This document shows, in pieces, positions 9,911-35,341 of a stretch of DNA of 36,295 nt. The DNA is taken from positions 1 to 36,295 of IMG/VR virus record IMGVR_UViG_3300030102_002177; one strand, 5' to 3'. Both the position numbers and the translations under genes were made by a program. Position 1 is the stretch's first letter, and each line of letters starts with the position of its first letter. The DNA is from a virus. The notes under the pieces are model-generated. The model made no database searches and had not been told where the DNA came from. It saw only the letters and a list, made by a program, of their open reading frames with translations.

Positions 9911-11353
9911 ATGAATAAACTACAGGACTATCCGTTTAAAACTGAGCCTTTTGCTCATCAGCTAGCTGCGTTAGGCGCAGCTTTAGAAAAAGATAATTTT
10001 GCCTGGTTTATGGAAATGGGTACAGGAAAGACTCTTGTTGCTATCTATAATGCTAGTTATTTATATGATAATGGACACATTGAAAGTTTGGTAGTAATTG
10101 CTCCTAAGACAGTTTACAAAAACTGGATAAGAGAATTGAACAATCATTTACCGGAACATATTGTGCCTGATATTTTTGTCTGGGGGTCAGATAACAAAGC
10201 AGAAGAAAGAAAAAAACTAGAAAAAGTATTCTTACCCAATGATAACTTTAAAATATTTCTTATGAACGTTGAGGCGTTCAGCACTAAGAAAGGTGTTGAT
10301 TTTGCTAAGAAGTTTTTCTTATCACATAAAGCCATGGTTGCAATTGATGAAAGCACGACAATCAAAAATCCAACAGCAGCTCGGACAAAAAGTATTTTAA
10401 AATTATCCCCGCTAATCAAATACAAAAGAATCATGACGGGTTCACCAGTCACCAGGTCTCCAATAGATCTGTATTCTCAGTGTGCTTTTCTTGATGAAGA
10501 TTTATTAGGCTTCAGTTCATTCTGGGCATTTAAAAATAGATACTGTGTCATGGTAAGAAGAAACGTTCCAACTCATCAGTTCAACATGATTGTGAGATAT
10601 CAAAGATTAGACGAACTTTCAGAAAAGATTGATCACTTTTCTTACAGAGTGCTTAAAGATGATTGTCTTGATTTACCGGAAAAAATATATCAGGTACGTA
10701 ATGTATCTATGACTCCGAAACAAATGGAGATGTATGTATCTATGAAGAGAATGGCCATAGCGTCATTAGAGGGAGAAAGGTTGACAGCCCTATCAGCGCT
10801 AACCCAAATACTAAGGCTACATCAGATAGTGTGCGGGCACGTAAAATTAGATAACGGAGAAGTAAAGCCAGTAGAAAATAACAGGATAAAAGAATTGTTA
10901 AATATATTGAATGAGACATCAGGCAAAGTTTTAATCTGGGCAAACTATAGACACGACATTGAAAACATTGCAAGAGAAATATCCAAGATCCATGGTTCAC
11001 AATCCGTGGCTACTTTTTATGGTGACACGCCAAACGAAGAGCGACAACAAATTATTGATGACTTTCAGAATGGCGAAGACCTTCGTTATTTTGTAGGTAA
11101 TCCAAAAACAGGTGGTTATGGTTTAACTTTAACCAAAAGCCACACTGTGATATACTACAGTAACTCTTATGACTTAGAAGTCCGACTACAATCGGAGGAT
11201 AGAGTGCACCGCATAGGACAAACATCAAAGGTCACTTATGTTGACCTAGTAACTGAAGGCACTGTAGACGAAAAGATTGTACAAAGTTTAAGGAATAAGA
11301 TTAACATAGCGACACAAGTCATGGGAGAGGAGCTAAAAGAATGGCTGATTTAA
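9911..11353 (+). CDS. SNF2-family (SF2) DNA helicase/translocase, 480 aa
   Basis: Two RecA-like domains of the SNF2 group. Motif I is EMGTGKT (35-41); motif II reads DEST (145-148) instead of DEAH; motif III is TGSP (175-178). In the C-terminal lobe GGYGLTLTKS and the motif VI core EDRVHRIGQ (about 429-437) are typical of SNF2 enzymes. No HNH or other nuclease domain is fused. The start is placed at MNKLQDYPF rather than at the longer upstream frame, which would run through both promoters. It is the first of four plus-strand genes and overlaps the PP-loop gene by 13 nt. Role unknown: remodelling of host or phage DNA-protein complexes, or part of a DNA modification system. Confidence 0.93.
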   Translation: MNKLQDYPFKTEPFAHQLAALGAALEKDNFAWFMEMGTGKTLVAIYNASYLYDNGHIESLVVIAPKTVYKNWIRELNNHLPEHIVPDIFVWGSDNKAEERKKLEKVFLPNDNFKIFLMNVEAFSTKKGVDFAKKFFLSHKAMVAIDESTTIKNPTAARTKSILKLSPLIKYKRIMTGSPVTRSPIDLYSQCAFLDEDLLGFSSFWAFKNRYCVMVRRNVPTHQFNMIVRYQRLDELSEKIDHFSYRVLKDDCLDLPEKIYQVRNVSMTPKQMEMYVSMKRMAIASLEGERLTALSALTQILRLHQIVCGHVKLDNGEVKPVENNRIKELLNILNETSGKVLIWANYRHDIENIAREISKIHGSQSVATFYGDTPNEERQQIIDDFQNGEDLRYFVGNPKTGGYGLTLTKSHTVIYYSNSYDLEVRLQSEDRVHRIGQTSKVTYVDLVTEGTVDEKIVQSLRNKINIATQVMGEELKEWLI

Positions 11354-12186
11354 AAGTATTATCATTGGGAGCGGGAGTGCAATCAAGCACTTTGGCATTT
11401 ATGTATGAGTATGGTGAGATAGGTCCCATGCCTGATTTTGCTGTGTTTGCTGACACCATGGCAGAACCAAAAGAAGTTTATGATTGGTTTGATTGGATGA
11501 AAGGTAAGATTAAAAATTATCCTATTCATGTCATCAGCGCTGGTAATATTGAAACAGATTCACTTGAGGCTGCAGAAGGTTTACATACCTCTCGAACACC
11601 TCCTTTCTTTACAAAAGATCCAAACAAAAACAGCATGGGTATTCTAACCAGGCAATGTACCGGGCACTACAAGATTGAACCCATTCACAAGTTTATTAGA
11701 GAACATATGGGATATAAAAAAGGACAACGTGTAAAAAAAGGCACTGTTGTTGAAATGATTATGGGTATATCTCGTGATGAAACCTATCGTGTGAAAGAGG
11801 CTAGAAAGCCTTGGATTAAAAACGTTTATCCTTTGGTTGAAAGAAATATCACCAGAGCGATGTGTAAGAAGTGGTTTGAAGATCACGAAATGCCAAAGCC
11901 ACCAAGATCAGCTTGTACCTTTTGTCCTTACAAGACTTGGACAGAGTGGAAATACCTAAAAGATAACTCACCAGAAGAGTTTCAACACGTCATTGAGTTT
12001 GAGAAAAAGATTAACGGTGGATTCAAAGGAATGCGTGAGGGCTACACTGTTTTCGTAACCAAAGAAGGTAAGCCTTTAGGTGAGATCGATATCGATGAGA
12101 AAGCAAAAGACAGTGGTCAGATGTCCATGTTCGACGAATTAGGTGGCGTTACAGTCAATGATTGCGAAGGCATGTGCGGTGTATGA
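11341..12186 (+). CDS. PAPS-reductase/DndC-like PP-loop protein, 281 aa
   Basis: An adenine-nucleotide alpha-hydrolase of the PAPS reductase group. The PP-loop is SLGAGVQSS (8-16), followed by DTMAEPKEVYDWF, RQCTGHYKIEPI and GISRDETYRVK. Cysteines 106, 175, 192 and 195 (the last two as CTFC) have the spacing expected of an Fe-S cluster in DndC/TtcA-type sulfur enzymes. Two more lie at the end (DCEGMC). Such enzymes activate substrates by adenylation and often handle sulfur. GAGAGGAGCTAAAAGA precedes the ATG inside the SNF2 gene. Linkage to SNF2 suggests nucleic acid modification rather than sulfate assimilation; the substrate cannot be read from sequence. Confidence 0.9.
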   Translation: MADLKVLSLGAGVQSSTLAFMYEYGEIGPMPDFAVFADTMAEPKEVYDWFDWMKGKIKNYPIHVISAGNIETDSLEAAEGLHTSRTPPFFTKDPNKNSMGILTRQCTGHYKIEPIHKFIREHMGYKKGQRVKKGTVVEMIMGISRDETYRVKEARKPWIKNVYPLVERNITRAMCKKWFEDHEMPKPPRSACTFCPYKTWTEWKYLKDNSPEEFQHVIEFEKKINGGFKGMREGYTVFVTKEGKPLGEIDIDEKAKDSGQMSMFDELGGVTVNDCEGMCGV

Positions 12187-12448: not shown

Positions 12449-12628
12449 ATGTACAACTTAACTAATAAAGCAAAACAACACTTCTTAAATTTCTTTAAGA
12501 GTGATGATGATAAAGAACAAGAATTAATAGACTTTTTAAAAGCAGAGTATAAGAAAGACTGGAAAGCAGCATACGCTTGGTATTTAGAAGAAGGTACACT
12601 GCCAAACTACGTTAGAAGAACTCTCTAG
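12449..12628 (+). CDS. Small hypothetical protein, 59 aa
   Basis: A strong ribosome binding site (AAAGGAGAATTACA) precedes the ATG. The peptide starts MYNLTNKAKQHFLNFF and is charged, Lys/Glu-rich and helical, with EYKKDWKAAYAWYLEEG and a LPNYVRRTL end. It closes the plus-strand island: its TAG overlaps the stop of the lysozyme gene on the other strand within CTAG (12625-12628), with no terminator between. No known family is recognised. Confidence 0.7.
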   Translation: MYNLTNKAKQHFLNFFKSDDDKEQELIDFLKAEYKKDWKAAYAWYLEEGTLPNYVRRTL

Positions 12629-13074
12629 GTATTAGCTATAATCTCAGCAAGGTGCTCACAGCGCTTCGGTGTCTGTGAATGCCACCTAGAGTCTTTCATC
12701 TCAGCCGCTGCTGTCTTCCAATCCTTGACTCTCATTGCTTTCCACATCTTCTTAAAGTTGCGAACACCTTGAGTTCCCAATTGAAACACCATCTCTAAAA
12801 TAACTTCACCAACATGCTGAGGTAAATCGTGACCGATACACTCACTAATTAATAAATCAGCTCCTGCTGCCGCTCTGTTTAAATCCATTTCAAATATCTC
12901 AATGATTTCATCCATCGGTATCTCTACCCCTTCAGCAAATCTTTCTCTTTCATGAGCTTGTACGAGGTGGCCTATGCCCACAGTGGCTTTTCCTAAACTG
13001 TCCAAATACATAGATGTGCGCAGGCCTTCATGGTCCTGTACTCGTGCCTTCAATTCGTCTGTAATTTTTATCAT
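12625..13074 (-). CDS. T4-type lysozyme (GH24 endolysin), 149 aa
   Basis: A muramidase that cuts the peptidoglycan sugar backbone for lysis. The catalytic triad follows the T4 pattern E-8-D-5-T: Glu16 in HEGLR, Asp25 in YLDSLGK and Thr31 in TVGIGH. There is no signal peptide, so release probably needs a holin, which is not recognised here. The start is set at 13074 because the stop of the 30-aa ORF overlaps this ATG as ATGA and AGGAG lies adjacent; a TTG five codons earlier is less likely. It is the last gene of the late transcript. Confidence 0.93.
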   Translation of the reverse strand: MIKITDELKARVQDHEGLRTSMYLDSLGKATVGIGHLVQAHERERFAEGVEIPMDEIIEIFEMDLNRAAAGADLLISECIGHDLPQHVGEVILEMVFQLGTQGVRNFKKMWKAMRVKDWKTAAAEMKDSRWHSQTPKRCEHLAEIIANT

Positions 13075-13163
13075 GCTCCTATGCCCCAATGTTCTTGATG
13101 TTCATCGGGTTCTCCTTTCTGAGGCAGTATTTTACTAAATAACCTTTTAAGTTTCAACCACAT
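13071..13163 (-). CDS. 30-aa micro-ORF between virion protein and lysozyme
   Basis: The ATG at 13163 begins one base after the upstream stop (TAAGATG) and its TGA overlaps the lysozyme ATG (ATGA), so it bridges two genes by coupling. The peptide has a basic amphipathic start (MWLKLKRLFSKILPQK) and a polar end, the kind of sequence that binds membranes. Inside it, AAAGGAG precedes an alternative 8-codon ORF in another frame, so the ribosome path is not settled. It may be a lysis accessory or only a translational bridge. Confidence 0.45.
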   Translation of the reverse strand: MWLKLKRLFSKILPQKGEPDEHQEHWGIGA

Positions 13164-22373: not shown

Positions 22374-22540
22374 TAGCTAAAAAAATACGCCCTTCTCGTT
22401 TGTTCATTTGCGTTATCTTGTTGATAAGAAGAATTTAATTGTAAAATCAACTGCTCCAACTGACGAACGAGTTCAGCAAAAGCTCTTGCGTCATAAGATT
22501 CAGGCGGGTCAGGAAAACGTGTTTGTGCTATTTTAGCCAT
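22373..22540 (-). CDS. Small conserved protein, 55 aa
   Basis: The ORF is linked by TAATG on both sides, its start overlapping the 709-aa gene's stop and its stop overlapping the 118-aa gene's start. The sequence runs MAKIAQTRFPDPPESYD, then a helix (RAFAELVRQLEQLILQLN) and an aromatic end AYFFS. It looks like a short helical scaffold or assembly factor of the tail hub. Function unknown. Confidence 0.75.
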   Translation of the reverse strand: MAKIAQTRFPDPPESYDARAFAELVRQLEQLILQLNSSYQQDNANEQTRRAYFFS

Positions 22541-24669
22541 TATCTTTCACCATCTGGTTCAACATCAAAATGATATGTTCCTACTTTAAAATTACCACCT
22601 ACTGCATTACTTTCAATTTTAAAATTAGCCTGTCTTCCTCTGCCTCGCATATCTTTTTTTGTATCTGTAGTTGCAACTGTTAAAGCTGTTTGACTAACGA
22701 CACTACCGTAAGGATAGTTTTTAAAGCTGACTGTCATTGTTAAATTTTGTGCTTGATCCCTGAAGTCAGGAACAAATCTAGAAATTCTCATAGGGTCTTC
22801 TCCTCCTTGAGTGATTGTAAAATCTCCTGATTCTATAAAAGCTTGCATCGCTTCACCGTCAGCATCTGTGCCGAACTCATGTTTATAATGCTCTGATACA
22901 CCGTTGGATAAACCAACAACAGTTGGTGTTGCGTTGGCCGTGCTATTTTGTAAAAACTCTGTTGCCAAAGGAAACTGAAAGACTCCTCGATCAACCCATG
23001 ATGTTCTACTTAACGTACCAACATACCATGTTTGTTCTAAATAATTATATACAACACATTTGTTTACTTGAGGTTGAGCCACGTTATCTGGGTTAGTAAC
23101 ATAAAACCAAATAATCTCTGCGAACTCTGTATTGACACCTGCAAAGATTTGATCATTCTGTGTAAGATCAATATTTTCAAATACAAAATCATCAACAGTA
23201 CAAGGTATTTTTTTGACTGTACCATCAAAAACAAAAAATGCGTTTTGCCCCATCCAATACGCTACGTCACGAACAACTACGGCAGCGTGTTGTCCTAACA
23301 AACCACAGTTTTTACCTAACTGATTTAAACCAAAAGTAAAAGGGGGACCAATAAATTGTAAACCATGTAAAGAGGTATCTGTCCAAACTAAGATTTGACC
23401 ACGAGCTTTGTCGGCACCTACAATAGTAGAACCGTCTTGAATACGTAAAGAACCAGCGGTATTTTCTGCCGTTGGTTGATAAGTATTAATATCTTCTTGT
23501 GATGAAAAACGTAATAACAAAGGATCTTGAGATGAGGCGCTACCAATAGTGCTTTCTGTACCAAATAAAAGTAAATGTCTATCTGGTGTTGAAACTAAAG
23601 AAAACTTTGAAGTGGTTGGTGCATTTGTTACAAGACTTGCCTTACCTGTCAAACCATCTGAAGTTGGAGACCACTCGAATGTTGAGCCATCTAAAACTGT
23701 TGCAATTAACAATTCACCAAAGTTATCTAACGACCAATCACGACCATTCAGTTGAACCGATGAAGTAACCGACGCTGTATTCCATGGTGTGGCATTAGCA
23801 GAATCCTCAAAGAAAACAACTCCAGTGCCATCAGCATGTGCTGATCTTGTAGAACTATCAACCGCTCTTGTGATACCTGTAAGATTAGGTGATGAAACTC
23901 CTGTGTAAGATATGATCTCATCATCAATAATGACTTTGCCTGAACTAGGAAAACCTGCGGTACTGTCTAAAGTTATTGATGTACCTGATCCACCTGTTCC
24001 ATTATTATCATCAAGCAGAGCACCATCTAATGTATTTGTAATAGCAGTTGTAAAACCACCCCAACCATTTGTACCCCAACCATAACCAAAAGTAGAAAAA
24101 GCAGGACCTATACTAATATCAAATACTGCGGTAGCAGTACCTGTTGTGACAGAACCAGTTGATTCATTTACGTCTTGTTGAATTACAAACTGATCTGCAT
24201 TAGTTATTGATTTAACTTCAAAACTTCGATCAAAATTTACTGTTGTAAAGCTAGTTCCCGACAATCCTGTCGTTCCAGAAAAAGTAACAATGTCTCCTTC
24301 ACTAGCACCATGACTTGTTATATTTACGGTTACATTAGGAGATCCATTAGTTGTCGTAAAAATATTACTGACACTAGAAAAAGTAGCTCTTACTGGAGTT
24401 ATGTCGTAAAAAATATCGTTAGCAAAAATGTATAATTTTTTATCTGTACCTACAGCTTGTAAACGAGTGCCATCTAAAGCAACCCAGTTATGAGCGTCAC
24501 GTGCCACTCCGATTAGCGTATTGTTTTGAGTTTTTTCCCAACCACCTATTTTCTCAGGTAAGCCGTATCTAAATCTTACATTATCACAATCAGTATAACC
24601 ACCAGCAGCGCCTAAATTACTTGTCTGCTTTTGAATCCCCGGTTTTAGTTCTATTTTTGTTAGTGTCAT
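22540..24669 (-). CDS. Large tail hub/stabilisation-like protein, 709 aa
   Basis: A beta-rich structural protein. The start (KPGIQKQTSNLGAAGGYTDC, DNVRFRYGLPEKIGGWEK) is typical of tail hub/'phage stabilisation' proteins (P22 gp10-like) of marine podoviruses, with propeller-type repeats such as LHGLQFIGPPFTFGL and VVVRDVAYWMGQNAFFVFDG. A Gly/Thr-rich insertion near 95-280 has IDDEIISYTGVSSPNLTG. The ATG lies inside the glycosyltransferase gene (53-nt overlap) and is not preceded by a strong ribosome binding site. Identity as hub is inferred. Confidence 0.72.
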   Translation of the reverse strand: MTLTKIELKPGIQKQTSNLGAAGGYTDCDNVRFRYGLPEKIGGWEKTQNNTLIGVARDAHNWVALDGTRLQAVGTDKKLYIFANDIFYDITPVRATFSSVSNIFTTTNGSPNVTVNITSHGASEGDIVTFSGTTGLSGTSFTTVNFDRSFEVKSITNADQFVIQQDVNESTGSVTTGTATAVFDISIGPAFSTFGYGWGTNGWGGFTTAITNTLDGALLDDNNGTGGSGTSITLDSTAGFPSSGKVIIDDEIISYTGVSSPNLTGITRAVDSSTRSAHADGTGVVFFEDSANATPWNTASVTSSVQLNGRDWSLDNFGELLIATVLDGSTFEWSPTSDGLTGKASLVTNAPTTSKFSLVSTPDRHLLLFGTESTIGSASSQDPLLLRFSSQEDINTYQPTAENTAGSLRIQDGSTIVGADKARGQILVWTDTSLHGLQFIGPPFTFGLNQLGKNCGLLGQHAAVVVRDVAYWMGQNAFFVFDGTVKKIPCTVDDFVFENIDLTQNDQIFAGVNTEFAEIIWFYVTNPDNVAQPQVNKCVVYNYLEQTWYVGTLSRTSWVDRGVFQFPLATEFLQNSTANATPTVVGLSNGVSEHYKHEFGTDADGEAMQAFIESGDFTITQGGEDPMRISRFVPDFRDQAQNLTMTVSFKNYPYGSVVSQTALTVATTDTKKDMRGRGRQANFKIESNAVGGNFKVGTYHFDVEPDGER

Positions 24670-25462
24670 TGGCTCTACTAAATATTGCTCCTACATGGCC
24701 ATTGAAGTGCATGTTGCCGTGATGCACCAAGGGCGACGCCACATCTGCCCAAATTTTACCACCTATCTTAGACCATAATCTACTAAAATAATAGTCCTCA
24801 CTTAAATATCGTTCTTCTTTATCCCAAGGTAGTTTTCCTACTCCAAAAAAATCATAACAATTATCAGAGCGCCAAATACCACCGTTGATTATTTGATCAG
24901 ATTTATATTTTCGATCAGGAAAAGCTTTTCTTAATTTTGTAAAAACGTTTCTTTTAATCAACATCATGCCTGTAGCAGCTTCTAAAACCTCACAAAAACC
25001 ATCTTCCATTTTAATATTTTTAGGATCTTTAAAATTAAGATTATATCCCAAAGATCTGTATTCAAGTTCTCGATTTGATATATTAGGAAAGTCTTTTAAA
25101 ATACCTCTAATCTTATCCCAATGAACACATTTACGAGGATAAATACCACACACAATATCTTTGTCCGCTCTGATCAACCTGTCTATGTTTGTCGGAGTAA
25201 AACCAATATCGGCATCAATAAACAATAAATGTGTTGCAATATAATCCTTATCATCCAGAAACATAGAAACTATTGTATTTCTTGCTCTCGTAATTAAAGA
25301 CTCGTTGCCAACGGTTTGTACTTTCATCTCGACACCCTGATCCGAGGTCCATGATTGAAGACCTAATACTCCATGCATAGTGTTTTCAGTAAGCATTCCA
25401 CCATACATGGGCATGCCTAGATACAACCTTACGTTGTGATCTTTTAAATCGCCTGTAATCAT
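24617..25462 (-). CDS. GT-A-type glycosyltransferase, 281 aa
   Basis: The DxD motif is DAD (83-85) in LLFIDADIGFTP, preceded by a sugar-nucleotide-binding type strand and RARNTIVSMFL. SEDYYF (221-226) supplies the acidic catalytic candidate, and a late HHG (247-249) is a possible metal ligand. No membrane segment, so it is cytosolic. Its place between tail hub and fibre genes suggests glycosylation of a virion protein or of a host polysaccharide. The ATG overlaps the upstream stop (ATGA) and the end overlaps the hub gene by 53 nt. Confidence 0.85.
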   Translation of the reverse strand: MITGDLKDHNVRLYLGMPMYGGMLTENTMHGVLGLQSWTSDQGVEMKVQTVGNESLITRARNTIVSMFLDDKDYIATHLLFIDADIGFTPTNIDRLIRADKDIVCGIYPRKCVHWDKIRGILKDFPNISNRELEYRSLGYNLNFKDPKNIKMEDGFCEVLEAATGMMLIKRNVFTKLRKAFPDRKYKSDQIINGGIWRSDNCYDFFGVGKLPWDKEERYLSEDYYFSRLWSKIGGKIWADVASPLVHHGNMHFNGHVGAIFSRANDTNKNRTKTGDSKADK

Positions 25463-25749
25463 TTTAATTTCTTTTGTTTATTCATCCCTTCTACTAATGC
25501 TGACATTGTTGTCATGTTTTGTTTTACCATTTCATTTCTAAAACTTTCTATAGCTGAACCTGCTTGACTTGTTTGTCTTGAGTTTTCAATCATAAGCATA
25601 GGCATCATGGCCATTGCACAGCCATACTCATCAATTTCTTCACCTGTTTGAGGATGTCTTCCACGAACTTGTATAAACCAACCGCAATCAAATTTTTTGC
25701 AAGGTTTAAAACCGTTAAGAGGACAGTTATCTTTGATTTCGATTTTCAA
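25459..25749 (-). CDS. Conserved Cys-containing tail-module protein, 96 aa
   Basis: The core CPLNGFKPCKKFDCGWFIQV carries Cys9, Cys17 and Cys22, then GEEIDEYGCAMAMMPMLMIE with Cys44. Four Cys in this spacing suggest a metal site. A helical tail (IESFRNEMVKQNMTTMSALV) follows. This family recurs in marine podoviruses next to fibre genes; role unknown. The start is TTG at 25749, overlapping the fibre gene stop as TTGA. Confidence 0.78.
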   Translation of the reverse strand: MKIEIKDNCPLNGFKPCKKFDCGWFIQVRGRHPQTGEEIDEYGCAMAMMPMLMIENSRQTSQAGSAIESFRNEMVKQNMTTMSALVEGMNKQKKLK

Positions 25750-26731: not shown

Positions 26732-27574
26732 TTACTGATACTCAAATATTACTACAACTCCAGCGCCACCGTTGCCACCTGAAATTTGAGCACCACCACC
26801 ATTAATTTGTCCTCCAACAGCGCCACTACCGCCAGAACCATTAACTCCAGCTACTCCAGCAGCTTGAGCGTTCGAACCCACAGTTGTGACCGGTGTGCTT
26901 CCTCCCCAGAAACTTGCTCCACCAGAGCACATTATACATACAAAACCACCACTGACAGTTCTTCCTTTTGATCCAATAACAATTCCGTTTTCGCCTTTTA
27001 TATTTATATCTCCATTAGAAGCTGTTCCTCCTGCACCAGGAGTGCCTCCTATATTTTCAACACTTGAAAAGTCAACGCCTGTGCCAGCTCCGCCACCACC
27101 GCCTGTCAACGTAGGTCCTGAACCTTGAGGATTAAAAGTTGTATCTCCACCTGCGGTCCCACTGTTAGACCCTGAAGCTCCTGAGCCTCCCGATCCTGCA
27201 GCACCGATAGTCACGGCAGCACTTGATCCTAGTTCAGTTGCGTTATAAATTTTCATAGCACAACCACCTGCTCCGCCACCACCTCCTGAGCCAAAATAAA
27301 AGTTATTTGTAGTGACAGCACCTCCGCCACCACCTCCTGCTCCTATGCAATAGACTTGAACAAAAGTTGTTCCTGCAGTAGGAGTGTAAGTCCCTGTAGA
27401 TGTAATTACTTGTGTATCGTGAGCAGCAACACCGCCTCCACCAAAACCATTGGCCGTGCCATTATTAGATATGGTTGCCCCCGCAGGTATAGTGAACGTA
27501 TCACCACTGTCACCTAAAGTGACATCAGTTCCGCTTTCGGGTGATATTTTATTTACTTTTAATTCGCTACTCAT
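26732..27574 (-). CDS. Glycine-rich tail fibre tip protein, 280 aa
   Basis: It begins with one copy of the anchor module (LKVNKISPESGTDVTLGDSG, then DTFTIPAG) and NNGTANGFGG. The rest is a glycine-rich domain (CIGAGGGGGGA; LTGGGGGAGTG; GGNGGAGVVVIFEYQ), like polyglycine-rich adhesin tips of other phages. Such tips carry short variable loops that decide host receptor binding. Strong C/G use in Gly codons shows against the AT-rich neighbours. Confidence 0.85.
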   Translation of the reverse strand: MSSELKVNKISPESGTDVTLGDSGDTFTIPAGATISNNGTANGFGGGGVAAHDTQVITSTGTYTPTAGTTFVQVYCIGAGGGGGGAVTTNNFYFGSGGGGGAGGCAMKIYNATELGSSAAVTIGAAGSGGSGASGSNSGTAGGDTTFNPQGSGPTLTGGGGGAGTGVDFSSVENIGGTPGAGGTASNGDINIKGENGIVIGSKGRTVSGGFVCIMCSGGASFWGGSTPVTTVGSNAQAAGVAGVNGSGGSGAVGGQINGGGAQISGGNGGAGVVVIFEYQ

Positions 27575-27981
27575 TTTTTGTGATCCTCTTTAACTTTTGT
27601 TATTGCATCTACCCAAGTGTTTGTGCCATTTATAGCATCGTGATACTGCATATCTAGCTGCTCTTGAATTGAAGGATAGGATATGGACCTTTTGTACTGA
27701 TAAGTTTCTTTATAAGCATTAAAATCGTCTATTTCTTTTTGTCGTTGAGTATCATATTCAGTTTTTTGTTGATTATGTTTATCTATAATTGACTGATAAG
27801 AACTTATATCTGTTATTTCTTTATTAACTTTTTCATCATTATATTCGATATGACCTTTAGAAAGTTCAGTATCAAACTGTATTGCATGAATATCAGATCC
27901 TACTGAAGATAAGTCTATATTGTCAAAACCAAAACTATCTATGGTAACTACATTATCTGTTTTAAGTATTGTTATTTTCAT
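27571..27981 (-). CDS. Tail-fibre assembly/chaperone-like protein, 136 aa
   Basis: A coiled-coil middle (IIDKHNQQKTEYDTQRQKEI) leads to a C-terminal motif YPSIQEQLDMQYHDAINGT and TWVDAITKVKEDHKK, typical of fibre assembly or fibre-end proteins. It lies between two fibres and overlaps the Gly-rich fibre by 4 nt (ATGA). Confidence 0.75.
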   Translation of the reverse strand: MKITILKTDNVVTIDSFGFDNIDLSSVGSDIHAIQFDTELSKGHIEYNDEKVNKEITDISSYQSIIDKHNQQKTEYDTQRQKEIDDFNAYKETYQYKRSISYPSIQEQLDMQYHDAINGTNTWVDAITKVKEDHKK

Positions 27982-27992
27982 AATTTTTCTCT

Positions 27993-28616
27993 CTATGTCT
28001 TCATAATAAATATTAATGTGTAATAAGGTGGATCAACGGAGTGCGTGTGAGAACCACCACCGCCTGTGTTTTGAACAGGATTAGGTGAACTTACTGTGTT
28101 GGTTGTAGATTGTATCGTAGCCCAAGTGCTATTTGTTGCTCCTGTGTTTGCGTTATTACCATTCAAATTGTGTTTGTGAGAAGGTATTTGACTTTCCGAT
28201 AGAGTGGTTGCTCCAGAAGTGCTACTACCACCAGTGTTATTTGCAGTGCCAGAAGCCTTAATAAATTTGTCTGTTAAATTAGGTGTTGAATTATTACCAT
28301 CACAGATAACCCAACCACTAGGAATATTACCCGAAGTGCCATGCCACATGAGAATGACACCACTTGGTATGGCCTCACCAAATCCTGTAGCAGTTCCATT
28401 ATTTGTGATCGTCGCCCCAGAAGGAACTGTAAATGTATCGCCGCTATCTCCAAAAGTAAAAGATGTGCCTGAAGAAGGAGAGATCTTGTTTGTTTTTAAT
28501 TCGTCAGTAGCAACAAGAGATGCTCCTGTTGGAACTGTAAAAGTGTCTCCACTGTCACCTAAAGTGATATCAGTTCCGCTTCTCGGCGATACTTTATTTA
28601 CTTTTAGTTCACTCAT
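27993..28616 (-). CDS. Collar-domain tail fibre, 207 aa
   Basis: Two anchor modules in tandem (VNKVSPRSGTDITLGDSGD at about 5-23 and TNKISPSSGTSFTFGDSGD at about 41-59) are followed by a tail-collar domain (IPSGVILMWHGTSGNIPSGW; CDGNNSTPNLTDKFI). The His-turn end (SHKHNLNG; GGGGSHTHSVDPPYYTLIFI) closes the protein. Receptor-binding tip of the fibre by family; trimer expected. Confidence 0.88.
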   Translation of the reverse strand: MSELKVNKVSPRSGTDITLGDSGDTFTVPTGASLVATDELKTNKISPSSGTSFTFGDSGDTFTVPSGATITNNGTATGFGEAIPSGVILMWHGTSGNIPSGWVICDGNNSTPNLTDKFIKASGTANNTGGSSTSGATTLSESQIPSHKHNLNGNNANTGATNSTWATIQSTTNTVSSPNPVQNTGGGGSHTHSVDPPYYTLIFIMKT

Positions 28617-29347
28617 GTTACTAATTTAAATCCTGTAAAATCTGTTTTAGCTGATCCACCAGATATATCTGCTGATCCTCCATAATCTATAAAAGCAAAA
28701 ACTTCAATGTAATCACTAACAGCTAGATTAAAAACTCCAGTAATATGCATGGTAATGTCTTGTCCCCCTGCAGGAGAACCACCGTTTCTAAGATCAATAT
28801 TATTTGAAACTAATTCAGAACCGTTTTTATATAAATATATTCTATATTCGTCAATTCTGTTACTACCAGTGTAATTAAAGTAAACTCTAGAGGTGAGAAA
28901 ATATAAACCAGCTTGACCTGATGGAACTGTAAATCTGTAGTTTGTGGAGTTATCGTATGCGCCTGCACTATCGTAGTCTTCAGTATCAAATTGAACTTTT
29001 GTTATACTAGCATCACTTATGGATTGAGTAGAGTTTCTGTAAACTCTAAAGTTCGGAGTGTTTGTTCCACCAAAACCTGTTTGTGTTCCGTTGTTTGTAA
29101 TTGTAACGCCACTTGGAATTGTGAACGTGTCACCACTATCACCAAAAGTAAATGCTGTTCCAGAGGCAGGAGATATCTTATTTGTTTTTAACTCTGTTGT
29201 TACCGTTTGTGTTGCGGGCAAATTAACTGTTGCACTTGTTGCTGTTAGAATAGTTCCAGAAGGTAATGTAAAAGTATCACCATTATCGCCAAGCGTAAGA
29301 CTTGTTCCTGATTGAGGGGTTAATTTATCTACTTCAAGTTTTGACAT
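28613..29347 (-). CDS. C1q-like-headed tail fibre, 244 aa
   Basis: Two anchor modules (LEVDKLTPQSGTSLTLGDNG and LKTNKISPASGTAFTFGDSG) lead into a C-terminal jelly-roll-like domain (AGLYFLTSRVYFNYTGSNR; YRIYLYKNGSELVSNNIDLR; YIEVFAFIDYGG; GFKLVT) resembling C1q/TNF-like heads. Receptor binding is probable. It is coupled to the next fibre by ATGA. Confidence 0.8.
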   Translation of the reverse strand: MSKLEVDKLTPQSGTSLTLGDNGDTFTLPSGTILTATSATVNLPATQTVTTELKTNKISPASGTAFTFGDSGDTFTIPSGVTITNNGTQTGFGGTNTPNFRVYRNSTQSISDASITKVQFDTEDYDSAGAYDNSTNYRFTVPSGQAGLYFLTSRVYFNYTGSNRIDEYRIYLYKNGSELVSNNIDLRNGGSPAGGQDITMHITGVFNLAVSDYIEVFAFIDYGGSADISGGSAKTDFTGFKLVT

Positions 29348-29806
29348 TTATACCACCGCTAAAGTTCCTGTAACTGTCACAGTCCCTGTTATTGAGACGG
29401 GGCCTGCTAATACTCCTGAGTCCATTGTTTGATCATCAGATATAGTTGAATTGTGTGTGTAAACATAAGTTGCAGCAGTCATACTTGCTGAAGGAGTTTG
29501 TTTTGCAGGTAATGTACAAATTACTATTTTTGTTCCTGCGGAAAAATCTACTAAATTATCAGAGTTAGAGGAAGAAAAGACAGTTGTTCTTGAAAGAGTA
29601 TCAGGAGTAGAGTCTGTGACTGTGCCTCTACCTACTTCAAATTCTGTGCCCGTTTCGCCAAATATAGAATAAAATGTTTCTTTACCATTACCTACACCCG
29701 CTACAAAAGTATCAAAACCTGTTGCTGCACCCGCTAATTGAATGGTGCCTGTTCCTGTTGAGGTGGTGGTTTCTTTTACACGATCATTTAATACAAAATC
29801 AGCCAT
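29348..29806 (-). CDS. Tail-associated beta-rich protein, 152 aa
   Basis: A marine phage virion family: start FVLNDRVKETTTSTGTGTIQ, then LAGAATGFDTFVAGVGNGKE, FEVGRGTVTDSTPDTLSRTT and FSAGTKIVICTLPAK. It ends in a Thr/Val-rich stretch (GPVSITGTVTVTGTLAVV). Expected to be a structural fibre/adaptor component located with the fibres. No enzymatic motif. Confidence 0.78.
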   Translation of the reverse strand: MADFVLNDRVKETTTSTGTGTIQLAGAATGFDTFVAGVGNGKETFYSIFGETGTEFEVGRGTVTDSTPDTLSRTTVFSSSNSDNLVDFSAGTKIVICTLPAKQTPSASMTAATYVYTHNSTISDDQTMDSGVLAGPVSITGTVTVTGTLAVV

Positions 29807-29822
29807 TGTTTAATTTATAGCA

Positions 29823-30284
29823 CTAAGCTGCCTCCGTGTCACTTACTTCTGTCCATGTCATCGAAGCACTATCATCTACAGAAGACCATGTAAAAGATGC
29901 AGTATCACTAACTGGAGTCCATGTCATCGAAGCACTATCATCTACAGCTTCCCAAGCTATAACTCCTACGCCTGGATTATTCAAGGTGAAACCTATATTT
30001 TGTCCTGAAGGGAAAACTATATTTTGAGGTATGACGACAACACCCGAACCATTAAAAGTTGAATTTATTTGTATGCCTGTAAGTTGAACATCAATGTTTG
30101 GAAGAATTACACTCGCTTGAGTAGAAGTAATACCAATACCTGTTGGAAAAGTAGTAACATCACCTAAGAATATTAAAGCGCCCTCTGTTGCGGTTACTTG
30201 AATACCTGTGAGAGCAATGGTTGCATTTGCTCCACCTTGAGCACCAAAAGAATCTCCTGCAAAAGTTGTAGCACCAAAGAACAT
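29823..30284 (-). CDS. Virion protein with C-terminal tandem repeats, 153 aa
   Basis: The N-terminal two thirds is a beta-rich domain (GIQVTATEGALIFLG; TGIGITSTQASVILPN). The end consists of about 10-11-residue repeats of the type VDDSASMTWTPVSDTASFTW, four in all. At DNA level a 31-bp exact repeat recurs with a 66-bp period (29851-29881 and 29917-29947), so copy number may vary. Trp/Thr/Ser-rich repeats suggest an exposed surface part. Confidence 0.78.
   Translation of the reverse strand: MFFGATTFAGDSFGAQGGANATIALTGIQVTATEGALIFLGDVTTFPTGIGITSTQASVILPNIDVQLTGIQINSTFNGSGVVVIPQNIVFPSGQNIGFTLNNPGVGVIAWEAVDDSASMTWTPVSDTASFTWSSVDDSASMTWTEVSDTEAA
29851..29947. repeat. 66-bp-period direct repeat inside virion gene
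   Basis: GTCCATGTCATCGAAGCACT (first 20 bases of a 31-bp exact repeat) occurs at 29851 and 29917. It encodes the Trp/Thr-rich repeats at the end of the 153-aa protein. Confidence 0.9.
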
Positions 30285-30752: not shown

Positions 30753-31427
30753 CTAATTACCTCCGGGGTCTGCTGATTTAAGAGGAATACGAAGGACCCC
30801 ATCCGCATATTCATCTCTACGTTTTCTACCCATTTGAGTCTGTGCTAAACCTTGCACAGATCGAGCGTACATTTGTTCATATAATTGCACATATTTAGGA
30901 GTTTTCAAGTATGAAAAGGCCTCTGATAAAGTGCCATAAAGTAAAAGATCTGATGCGGTATTAGATAAATAAGTCGTGGTTGTTGTGCCCCCAGTACCAT
31001 CACCTAATCTTTCTGGTGTTCTATTATACCAAAGTTCTACCGTCAAAGCCGCATTAGGTGTAGGAGCCACAATAAATGTGTTTTGATCCCAATTAGCATA
31101 ATATTTCGGAGTACCTTTATTGTTAACACGATCTACATTATATTCATCAATGAAAGTTGTGTCTTTCTGTTCTAACCAAGTTCTATCCGCATTTCCATCA
31201 ACAATTTGCACACCTCTTTCAAAATCAAAATCATCTGGCAAACTAATAAAGGGATTATCTGCAATTAGAGTAGAAGTAGAAAATTTTCTAAATGCGTCTA
31301 AATCTAGTTCTCTTTGAATTTTATTTTCTGTGTTTGTAATAAAAACGTTAATGACAGTATTGGATAAAACATCAGAGCTGACCTCTGTATAATCTCTAAT
31401 CTGTGTTAATAAATCACTATAATTCAT
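30753..31427 (-). CDS. Head-tail adaptor/tail tube-like protein, 224 aa
   Basis: The N-terminal helical start YSDLLTQIRDYTEVSSDVL and the INVFITNTENKIQRELDLDA region, with SLPDDFDFERGVQIV and APTPNAALTVELWYNRTP, match phage adaptor (Gp4/Gp11-type) proteins. The start is set at 31427 because it overlaps the preceding stop as ATGA; a longer upstream start would overlap by 49 nt. Identity as adaptor is from pattern and place. Confidence 0.72.
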   Translation of the reverse strand: MNYSDLLTQIRDYTEVSSDVLSNTVINVFITNTENKIQRELDLDAFRKFSTSTLIADNPFISLPDDFDFERGVQIVDGNADRTWLEQKDTTFIDEYNVDRVNNKGTPKYYANWDQNTFIVAPTPNAALTVELWYNRTPERLGDGTGGTTTTTYLSNTASDLLLYGTLSEAFSYLKTPKYVQLYEQMYARSVQGLAQTQMGRKRRDEYADGVLRIPLKSADPGGN

Positions 31428-32158
31428 GTACTTATGTTTATTTGACCACCCATTCCTGAGTGATTCTGACAATAATAATATAACACACTTGGCGTAGAAG
31501 AGTCTAGAAATATTGCCAGTGTTCTGCGTTGAGGACTTGATGCTGAAAATTCAGCAATATAAGCAGATTGAGAGACAAAGGTCTGATTAGGTGCATCTCC
31601 AAGTAGATACATCACATTAGTTGTATAGGTAGATCCTCCTCCATGTGTTCCATCCGATGTTGTGCTTAATAACATAGGGTGAGTTTTTGAAGAATCATCT
31701 GCAAATGCTATACCTCTAACCGTCTGATAGCTAAACCCTAATGTCGGTTGTTGTACTCCTCCAGAATAATAAGCATTACCACCTCCGCCACCTTTAGGTG
31801 CTACCGTCATAAGTGTATCTACACGAGCATATGTGGGAATACTTACTAATCCTTGACTAAAACTCATGGTAAGTTTTGATACCGGTGTGACAGGTATCAT
31901 TCCGTTTGATTCAAATGCTGAATCACCTGGAGCACCAACAAAAACTACGACTGGCTCTTTTCTAGCAGGTCTAGGATTTTGTAAGGCTTCGGGATCTGGT
32001 CTTGAGTATGGAGGATCTAGTTGAGGATGTTTGGGCTCGTAACATTCGGGACAAACCAGTAGACCGTTCCATTCTTTTTTTAACTGTAAATAATCATACT
32101 GCTGTCCGCATCTATCACAAATAGCTTGTGAATGTTTTCCGGCAGCAAAAGCACCCAT
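31424..32158 (-). CDS. Zinc-ribbon and cupredoxin-like virion protein, 244 aa
   Basis: The N-terminus carries a zinc ribbon: CDRC (Cys14, Cys17) and CPEC (Cys36, Cys39). A Pro-rich linker, a Gly-rich central part and a C-terminal domain follow, with THPMLLSTTSDGTHGGG (His160, His172) and YYYCQNHSGMGGQI (Cys230, His233, Met236). The His...Cys-x2-His-x2-Met order recalls type-1 copper sites of plastocyanin-like proteins. Similar C-terminal domains recur in marine phage virion proteins. Whether copper is bound is unknown. Confidence 0.75.
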   Translation of the reverse strand: MGAFAAGKHSQAICDRCGQQYDYLQLKKEWNGLLVCPECYEPKHPQLDPPYSRPDPEALQNPRPARKEPVVVFVGAPGDSAFESNGMIPVTPVSKLTMSFSQGLVSIPTYARVDTLMTVAPKGGGGGNAYYSGGVQQPTLGFSYQTVRGIAFADDSSKTHPMLLSTTSDGTHGGGSTYTTNVMYLLGDAPNQTFVSQSAYIAEFSASSPQRRTLAIFLDSSTPSVLYYYCQNHSGMGGQINIST

Positions 32159-32836: not shown

Positions 32837-32995
32837 TTATCCTCTTTTTTTAACGACAGATTTCTTCTTGCCCTTCTTCTTAACCATCTTGCCACCTTTT
32901 GCCATCATGACTTTACCGCCACCACGCATCTTGTTGACTTTACCGCCACCACGCATCTTACCTACTATGTTTTTTGTTTTCTTCATACCTGGCAT
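32837..32995 (-). CDS. 52-aa Lys/Gly-rich basic protein with internal repeat
   Basis: An AAAAGGAGAAAAAAA site precedes the ATG at 32995. The protein is strongly basic, with two KMRGGGKV repeats (24-bp exact DNA repeat at 32909-32932 and 32936-32959, period 27 bp) and a tail rich in Lys (KKKGKKKSVVKK). The small basic GGKV/KM-repeat type recurs in marine phages. DNA binding inside the virion is an inference from charge. Its start overlaps the end of the 228-aa ORF by 38 nt. Confidence 0.78.
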   Translation of the reverse strand: MPGMKKTKNIVGKMRGGGKVNKMRGGGKVMMAKGGKMVKKKGKKKSVVKKRG

Positions 32996-33644
32996 TTTTT
33001 TTCTCCTTTTTAAAAAGTTGTTCGTATTTGTCTTGCCGAGTTTTTACGACTTCATCGTAATACTCTGCTGGCCATTTGTCATAATAACCTATCTTATGTA
33101 GTTTGCAACTTGCATCATACAACTGTTTAAACTTTTGTATTAACATCATGGAATATTCGATGTTACCCTCATAGGTGCAATTATCTGTAGGATCAACCAA
33201 AAACTCTTGATCTTCCTCAGTAGCCGGAACATCAGGGTGAAATCCCATAAAATATACATCTCTTCTATTGTAAAGCTTATTATAGAAATTTACTTTTTCA
33301 TTAAATTGTTCAAAAGAATATTGATTAAAAAAGGGATCACAGAATATTAGAATATCGTGTTGTTTTTTATTCCAAGACTTAAGTAAAGTATTTAAATGCT
33401 TTTCATACTTTGACTTATCTACACGAACCTCAATTCGTAATTTATTATCTCTTCTCCACTTAGCTGCGAAAGGACACGCTGGAAATCCAAGATGTTTATT
33501 CATTGGTTCTAAGACCTGCTTAGACCATTGAATTACATCATCTTTTATTTTTTCTGCTTGTTTTTTTCTTGGCAAAGGTTGCTGCTCTTGAAGGTGTAGG
33601 ACCGGTGTTAGCTTTTGCTTGTTTTCTTCTAACTGCTCCTGCAC
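32958..33644 (-). CDS. Conserved phage protein, up to 228 aa (start uncertain)
   Basis: The conserved part begins near DDVIQWSKQVLEPMNKHLGF and PACPFAAKWRRDNKL, with DILIFCDPFFNQYSFEQFN, DVYFMGFHPDVPATEEDQEF and KLHKIGYYDKWPAEYYDEVV. These indicate a conserved marine phage family of unknown function. The open frame reaches a GTG at 33644 but overlaps the 91-aa gene by 107 nt. TTG near 33572 or ATG at 33500 are alternatives, the latter losing conserved sequence. The stop overlaps the 52-aa gene. Start choice is the weak point, not the gene. Confidence 0.75.
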   Translation of the reverse strand: MQEQLEENKQKLTPVLHLQEQQPLPRKKQAEKIKDDVIQWSKQVLEPMNKHLGFPACPFAAKWRRDNKLRIEVRVDKSKYEKHLNTLLKSWNKKQHDILIFCDPFFNQYSFEQFNEKVNFYNKLYNRRDVYFMGFHPDVPATEEDQEFLVDPTDNCTYEGNIEYSMMLIQKFKQLYDASCKLHKIGYYDKWPAEYYDEVVKTRQDKYEQLFKKEKKNARYEENKKHSR

Positions 33645-34882: not shown

Positions 34883-35341
34883 TTATTTTTTTGCACTCAT
34901 ATCGTTCAAAGGATTATTTAAAGCCTTATTAATCTTTAAGTCAAGGTTTTCTTCTATTATTTTAAGTTCATCAAATATTTCTCTAGTATCCTCTTTTTGT
35001 CTATCTTCCACATCATTTACAATTTCAGTTATGTGTCGAATATCTCCAGATTGTTGACGTAAATCCGCCTTCATGTCTGAGCGCATATCACGGGCAACAT
35101 CAGATATTATGGTTATTTCTTGAAGTATCATATCTATCTCAGATTTTAATACTGCCATACCTTCATCATATTGAGAGAGGTCCGGTTCGGTATACAACAA
35201 AATCTTTTCCTTCATTGAGAGATAGTCGGAGTAAAAATTAAAAACGGCCCACGCACCTGAACCAAGTGCACCTAATAAAGTAAGAATGGCAAAGACTTTC
35301 CCTCCAGATACCTTCATCCCGGCGTACTCAATACTGGGCAT
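34883..35341 (-). CDS. Membrane-anchored long coiled-coil protein, 152 aa
   Basis: A membrane helix at about 15-36 (KVFAILTLLGALGSGAWAVF) precedes a long coiled coil at about 60-140 (VLKSEIDMILQEITIISD; EIVNDVEDRQKEDTREIFDE). It resembles the next protein in layout. Spanin, holin-associated or virion membrane-contact roles are possible. Its start overlaps the end of the Glu-rich gene by 14 nt. Confidence 0.72.
   Translation of the reverse strand: MPSIEYAGMKVSGGKVFAILTLLGALGSGAWAVFNFYSDYLSMKEKILLYTEPDLSQYDEGMAVLKSEIDMILQEITIISDVARDMRSDMKADLRQQSGDIRHITEIVNDVEDRQKEDTREIFDELKIIEENLDLKINKALNNPLNDMSAKK

Follow-up and report, generated by a model that had tools for sequence, protein, structure and literature searches.

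The window analysed here, a single virus record of 36,295 bases, contains a host-recognition cassette that is best explained by a common anchor unit whose heads have been replaced by recombination between phages at the ends of the anchor units, the head in the second of three fibre slots together with a putative chaperone. We give this explanation a probability of roughly 0.72. According to this reading, the three short fibres would share the same N-terminal unit for tail attachment and a thin trimeric stalk, and a different head on each would contact the cell surface. Sequence comparison shows that recombination between phages exchanges the heads, breaking at an anchor-unit end, and leaves the anchor in its slot; a swap would change adsorption specificity. 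A small ORF in the cassette would be a dedicated fibre chaperone with an N-domain that recognises the head and a C-domain common to the phage lineage; head and small ORF would move together because of this recognition by the N-domain.

A common anchor unit in three fibre genes

The cassette lies in the tail part of the genome, with an SU10-type adaptor (30753-31472) to one side and a virion structural protein (22540-24669) to the other. The phage is a marine podo-type phage distantly related to the HTVC023P-type pelagiphages. The closest isolates for the adaptor protein were HTVC023P and HTVC027P, which infect Pelagibacter (44.5% at the amino acid level; 40-45% for the HTVC023P-type group, which includes 023Pt_psg01), and HTVC023P, HTVC027P, and 023Pt_psg01 were among the closest isolates for the 709-aa virion protein (about 40-42%). 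Given these matches, a SAR11 host is plausible for the window phage.

The genes are arranged on the minus strand in the order 152-aa ORF (29806-29348), C1q-type fibre (29347-28613, 244 aa; slot 1), collar-type fibre (28616-27993, 207 aa; slot 2), 136-aa partner ORF (27981-27571), polyglycine fibre (27574-26732, 280 aa; slot 3), and 319-aa ORF (26705-25746). At two of the gene junctions of the cassette there is a 4-nt overlap, which makes co-translation of the genes probable. Upstream of the cassette, a 153-aa ORF on the same strand (29823-30284) carries at its C-terminus three copies of a 33-nt repeat (29836-29947) that encode SDTASFTW/DDSASMTW-type repeats, and this region is among the least conserved stretches in comparison with close relatives. 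A glycosyltransferase-like gene (24617-25462, minus strand; phrog_34859, phrog_1574) is located inside the tail gene block. The record has a single gene pair on the plus strand, formed by a phosphoadenosine phosphosulfate reductase (11341-12186), an auxiliary metabolic gene, and a DNA helicase beside it.

The three fibre genes contain five direct copies (2 + 2 + 1 in slots 1 to 3) of a 93-nt unit, all in a single orientation, each encoding about 31 aa with the motif L(K/E)xxKxxPxSGTxxxxGDxGDTFTxPxG (Table 1). When the window was searched with the slot 1 protein, the other two fibres were matched at E 1e-28 and 3e-17, and the likeness of the five copies is therefore beyond chance. The five copies of a roughly 30-aa unit reported by the first-pass annotation were thus confirmed by the repeat search and by the protein search of the window. 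Among distinct complete relatives, which include many head types, the unit started no more than six residues from the N-terminus in 288 out of 304. As in the window, fibre-type proteins of HTVC023P and 023Pt_psg01 begin with the unit; unlike those of the window, the unit-bearing proteins of these phages are 460-491 aa long and have other heads, and the partner ORF was not found in the stretch of the HTVC023P-type phages that was examined.

The monomer model of the slot 1 fibre displayed no regular structure before residue 98. A thin trimeric stalk would look irregular as a monomer, and the structureless unit in this model is therefore as expected; the unit region is most likely such a stalk. 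It is also most likely the part that attaches the fibres to the tail.

The same annotation had described a single anchor type joined to polyglycine, collar, and C1q-like heads, and the model, PHROG, and Pfam evidence bore this out. The AlphaFold2 model of the slot 1 head, with pLDDT of 90 or more over most of the head, resembled solved C1q domains and the phi812 central spike with Z 17-18 (4oum: Z 17.1, rmsd 2.3 over 130 residues; 9eul: Z 18.0, rmsd 2.0 over 137 residues). The Pfam TNF/C1q match of this head was below the cut-off, and the predicted structure confirmed a jelly-roll fold of the C1q/TNF superfamily. The collar head was likewise under the Pfam cut-off (15.6 versus 24 bits); its matches were a tail protein in PHROG (E 1e-20) and, among solved structures, a tail fibre (E 4e-12). 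The polyglycine head was assigned to Pfam Gly_rich_2 above the cut-off. Fold and position suggest that the heads probably bind receptors or contact the cell surface.

Table 1. Features of the fibre cassette and of the exchanged block in the window
Feature	Position	Strand	Evidence or comparison
Conserved 152-aa ORF, synteny marker directly upstream of the cassette	29348..29806	-	comparison with relatives
Anchor unit 1, slot 1, N-terminus; LEVDKLTP type, common to L006 and L007	29252..29344	-	repeat search, unit comparison
Anchor unit 2, slot 1	29105..29197	-	95-99% nt identity to the equivalent unit in L085, L087, and L089
C1q/TNF-like head, slot 1, residues 94-244 of ORF 28613-29347	28616..29068	-	AlphaFold2 model, fold search
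Anchor unit 1, slot 2, N-terminus	28521..28613	-	repeat search, unit comparison
Anchor unit 2, slot 2	28413..28505	-	repeat search, unit comparison
Left junction: L089 similarity ends at 28378, L235 similarity begins at 28369	28369..28378	-	DNA comparison
Tail-collar-type head, slot 2, residues 83-207 of ORF 27993-28616	27996..28370	-	PHROG, solved fibre
High-identity core common to L235, covering the greater part of the head plus the partner N-domain	27755..28280	-	96.6% identity
136-aa partner ORF: beta N-domain (residues 1-58), helical C-domain (60-136); probable head-specific tail-fibre chaperone	27571..27981	-	position, relatives, model
Right junction, at the overlap of partner stop and slot 3 start; L089 similarity back at 27576	27571..27589	-	DNA comparison
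Anchor unit, slot 3, N-terminus	27476..27568	-	core 98% identical to L089
Polyglycine (Gly_rich_2) head, slot 3, residues 59-276 of ORF 26732-27574	26747..27400	-	Pfam

Exchange of heads between phages

In a sliding comparison, the contig closest to the window changed with position: down to 29281 it was mostly L006/L007, then L089 (29160-28381), L235 (28380-27661), and once more L089 (27600-27361). The L235-like segment between the two junctions at which the L089 similarity ends and resumes (28369-27571, 90.6% DNA identity) corresponded exactly to the collar head plus the partner ORF, a block of about 800 bp. Both junctions were located within about 10-20 nt of a boundary, namely the end of the second slot 2 unit and the stop/start overlap before slot 3. 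At contig level, the DNA comparison demonstrates that the piece replaced in slot 2 is the head plus the small ORF behind it. Since L089, L087, and L085 all have another head and another partner in this slot, the collar block of the window probably represents the derived state.

The L235 sequence is situated on a 26.3-kb contig from a phage that appears to be temperate and carries genes for an integrase, a methyltransferase, a terminase, and a portal protein. Comparison of the whole contig with the window gave no DNA match besides the collar head and partner block, and when an exact 32-nt probe from the block core was used on the viral collection, the L235 contig was the only match. At four-fold degenerate sites, the block was 80-88% identical to L235 and the window genes were 58-84% identical to those of L089, the two ranges overlapping; on the basis of these values, the block transfer is consistent with an event after the split of the window and L089 lineages. 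Three minus-strand window proteins, one lysozyme-like and two unknown (12625-13089, 32958-33644, and 34883-35341), had protein matches of 32-38% on the L235 contig near its fibre genes, which points to a common gene pool of the two phages.

The identity to L235 varied along the block, from 79% at the proximal end of the head to 96.6% over 28280-27755, 93% to 27686, and 71% thereafter (permutation p 0.0002 for the core against its 79% and 71% flanks). A motif that is invariant in seven collar heads is encoded within the first 30 codons of the head, yet the third positions of these codons were 67% identical to L235, whereas third-position identity was 94-100% in the final 65 codons of the head and the first 75 codons of the partner. 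Variable parts of the head protein thus had near-identical third positions and conserved parts diverged ones, a pattern that selection on the protein sequence does not explain. The simplest reading is a recent tract which ends in two more conserved segments and holds the variable head tip and the partner N-domain. The nucleotide comparison establishes that the distal head and partner N-domain were very recently common to the window phage and the L235 phage.

L006 and L007, which come from different metagenomes, were 98.1% identical over 5,782 nt; the similarity stopped abruptly at the end of the first slot 1 unit (L006 7010/L007 5782), beyond which the two have different, unrelated heads. In L006 and L087, the slot 3 anchors were 92% identical and the heads different. 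The same proximal part followed by an unrelated distal part was accordingly found in slot 1 (L006/L007), slot 2 (window/L089), and slot 3 (L006/L087). As far as contigs can tell, these comparisons demonstrate that phages exchange heads at the anchor/head boundary and that the anchor stays with its slot; such a swap would alter adsorption specificity or host range. The first-pass annotation had named a lack of recombinants in populations and fixed head-anchor pairs as the outcomes that would speak against it. Instead, recombinant relatives exist at the contig level, and anchors joined to different heads occur among the relatives. All recombinants are metagenomic contigs and an assembly chimera is possible for single cases, but independent contigs agree.

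The frequency of swapping was evaluated on loci fetched by similarity, a biased and redundant sample in which near-identical anchors had similar heads in 93-96% of the pairs, compared with 57% at 75-85% anchor identity. A stricter clustering of heads was used in place of loose single linkage, which merged 280 of 304 heads. Because the head family usually stays the same behind near-identical anchors, swaps occur without being constant or rampant.

It could be argued that the window merely displays ordinary phage mosaicism, where fibres would be replaced anywhere, unit junctions would not be special, and the partner would move as a mere neighbour. In general, the tail genes of phages are mosaic, the closest relatives elsewhere in the tail region likewise form a patchwork, and the constancy of head family behind near-identical anchors fits this explanation as well. 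However, the junctions in the window are positioned at a unit/head or gene boundary to within 10-20 nt, the L006/L007 similarity ends at a unit end, and the partner N-domain is found behind collar heads despite quite different upstream fibre parts and partner C-domains. We therefore consider it unlikely that mosaicism of this unstructured kind explains the cassette.

The small ORF behind the collar head

The partner ORF, located between the collar and polyglycine genes and inside the exchanged block, is a fourth member of the cassette that was absent from the first-pass annotation. Its gene directly follows the collar fibre gene, and head and partner are common to L235 as one block. The model of the protein (mean pLDDT 95.9) displayed a beta N-domain and a helical C-domain. 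The ORF itself had no Pfam match and belonged to PHROGs of unknown function, and in fold searches neither solved nor viral structures provided a decisive match (best Z 3.6); that these matches included no solved chaperone does not speak against any reading. A scan of bacterial genomes with the partner yielded two distant loci only, one of them in Nitrosovibrio.

The fetched loci contained 60 distinct partner relatives, 31 of which were directly behind a unit-bearing gene. The partner N-domain directly adjoined the collar head in 15 out of 15 loci selected by their collar (partly redundant). In a search independent of the collar, all five N-domain matches were just downstream of a collar head, with one further ORF that may intervene. 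This N-domain was joined to a phrog_9114/1787-type C-domain in the window and L243, to a tail-fibre-assembly C-domain (phrog_4912) in L251 and L242, and to a DUF4376 C-domain (E 9e-18) in L385. Partners behind C1q heads, with a C-domain like that of the window partner, matched XkdW above the cut-off. Of 32 pairs with similar heads, 30 were also similar in the partner N-region, versus about 26% of all pairs, a comparison that includes shared ancestry. The ORFs L251:2081-2464, L242:6420-6803, and L385:6001-6603, in which one 60-aa beta N-domain precedes quite different C-domains, look like a chimeric chaperone design. In L383 and L385, homologues of a 96-aa cysteine-containing ORF of the window (25459-25749, minus strand) separate the collar gene from the DUF4376 partner, which suggests that this ORF is part of the same pool of exchangeable tail genes.

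The chaperone gp27 of phage V22 is needed for active V22 fibres (PMC7289586), and its homologues carry DUF4376 (PMC7289586, PMC10579305). Because the relatives of the partner have C-domains of the tail-fibre-assembly type or of the DUF4376 type found in these homologues, it is likely that the partner functions as a head-specific tail-fibre chaperone.

The main alternative is that the partner is a virion component rather than a chaperone, such as a tip adhesin placed on the head like T-even gp38. The position of the gene is that of T-even gp38, which is the receptor-binding tip in phage PP01 (PMC12892980), and the window partner has no chaperone-family match of its own. This alternative is nevertheless rather improbable, as the C-domains of the relatives are of the tail-fibre-assembly or DUF4376 type and the model consists of a small beta domain plus helices, without a glycine-rich adhesin segment.

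If the partner is a chaperone, a more specific proposal can be put forward tentatively. The exchanged piece may be a functional pair across a gene boundary, composed of the distal head and the chaperone N-domain and bounded by the conserved head motif and the common C-domain. The chaperone would then be a two-sided adaptor that reads the head with its N-domain and whose C-domain belongs to the lineage of the phage, while the 31-aa unit would serve as a common plug that mounts several head types in parallel on one virion.

Likeness of the five copies, related systems, and implications

The DNA similarity between the copies had been taken as a sign of ongoing recombination, and the cassette as a receptor-switching architecture. 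Within the window, the copies were 25-50% identical at four-fold degenerate sites, with exact runs of 6-19 nt, and synonymous sites were saturated. The same-slot units of relatives were closer (83-99% nt identity) than paralogous units, and in the unit tree grouping was largely by slot and not by genome. Since the four-fold sites are so diverged, the exact runs so short, and the orthologues closer, the DNA likeness of the copies is attributed to the conserved protein alone; on this sequence evidence it reflects constraint on the protein and no recent exchange. The four-fold sites and the unit tree led to the rejection of recent gene conversion among the five copies, and the inference of ongoing recombination did not hold. 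Programmed switching by an invertase cassette or a diversity-generating retroelement was also rejected: the window contained only weak inverted pairs of 71-75%, none of them flanking the heads, and the record, which may be a fragment, gave no RVT_1 match for a reverse transcriptase. What stands of the switching claim is the exchange of heads between phages over evolution; a switch within the genome received no support. Although five direct copies of a 93-nt repeat are clustered here with 61-80% identity to the reference copy, it is very improbable that they recombine and shuffle heads in one lineage during growth, given the four-fold sites and exact runs, the closeness of relatives' units to their own slot, the single orientation, by which recombination between copies would mainly delete, and the absence of inversion arms and reverse transcriptase.

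Head exchange is an already known way of changing binding, and the window appears to offer a well-resolved example of it. Tetart reportedly found in 1998 that recombination between conserved motifs swaps adhesin specificity in T-even phages (cited in PMC7468147). In T-even gp37/gp38, exchange concerns the variable distal fibre part plus the small gene next to it, and conserved segments border the exchanged piece. The present case is similar in that a distal fibre part and a neighbouring small gene, bordered by conserved segments, are exchanged between phages; unlike in T-even phages, there are three parallel short fibre genes with one N-terminal unit, other head types (C1q, collar, and polyglycine), and another partner family.

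In the Alteromonas phage A5/V22 system, a fibre and its cognate chaperone are common to phages of different families (PMC10579305, PMC7289586). As in that module, a head-bearing fibre and the ORF behind it are here common to phages without other similarity, and DUF4376, the domain noted for V22 gp27 homologues, is carried by partner relatives. The A5/V22 module, however, comprises about ten syntenic genes with 58.8% similarity, whereas the present one consists of head and partner only, about 800 bp with 90.6% DNA identity. In metaviromic islands of Mediterranean marine phages, including pelagiphage-like genomes, the variable islands list C1q, tail-fibre, XkdW, and tail-fibre-assembly genes (PMC3909814). 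As in those islands, host-recognition genes vary here between otherwise close genomes, such as L006 and L007 with 98.1% identity upstream and different heads. That study was based on read recruitment and described no shared anchor unit or junctions, whereas the present comparison was based on contigs.

To these systems the present case adds an anchor unit common to three parallel genes, a contig of defined donor type, and evidence from the junctions that the exchanged piece crosses a gene boundary. If the reading is true, the unit of exchange would be defined for the host-recognition genes of an ocean-phage group, with clean donor-type and recipient junctions, and an unannotated ORF family (phrog_9114/1787, XkdW-like) would be linked to head-specific fibre assembly. 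Sequence alone would then suffice to pair heads with chaperones in metagenomes, and how these phages change adsorption would become a testable question.
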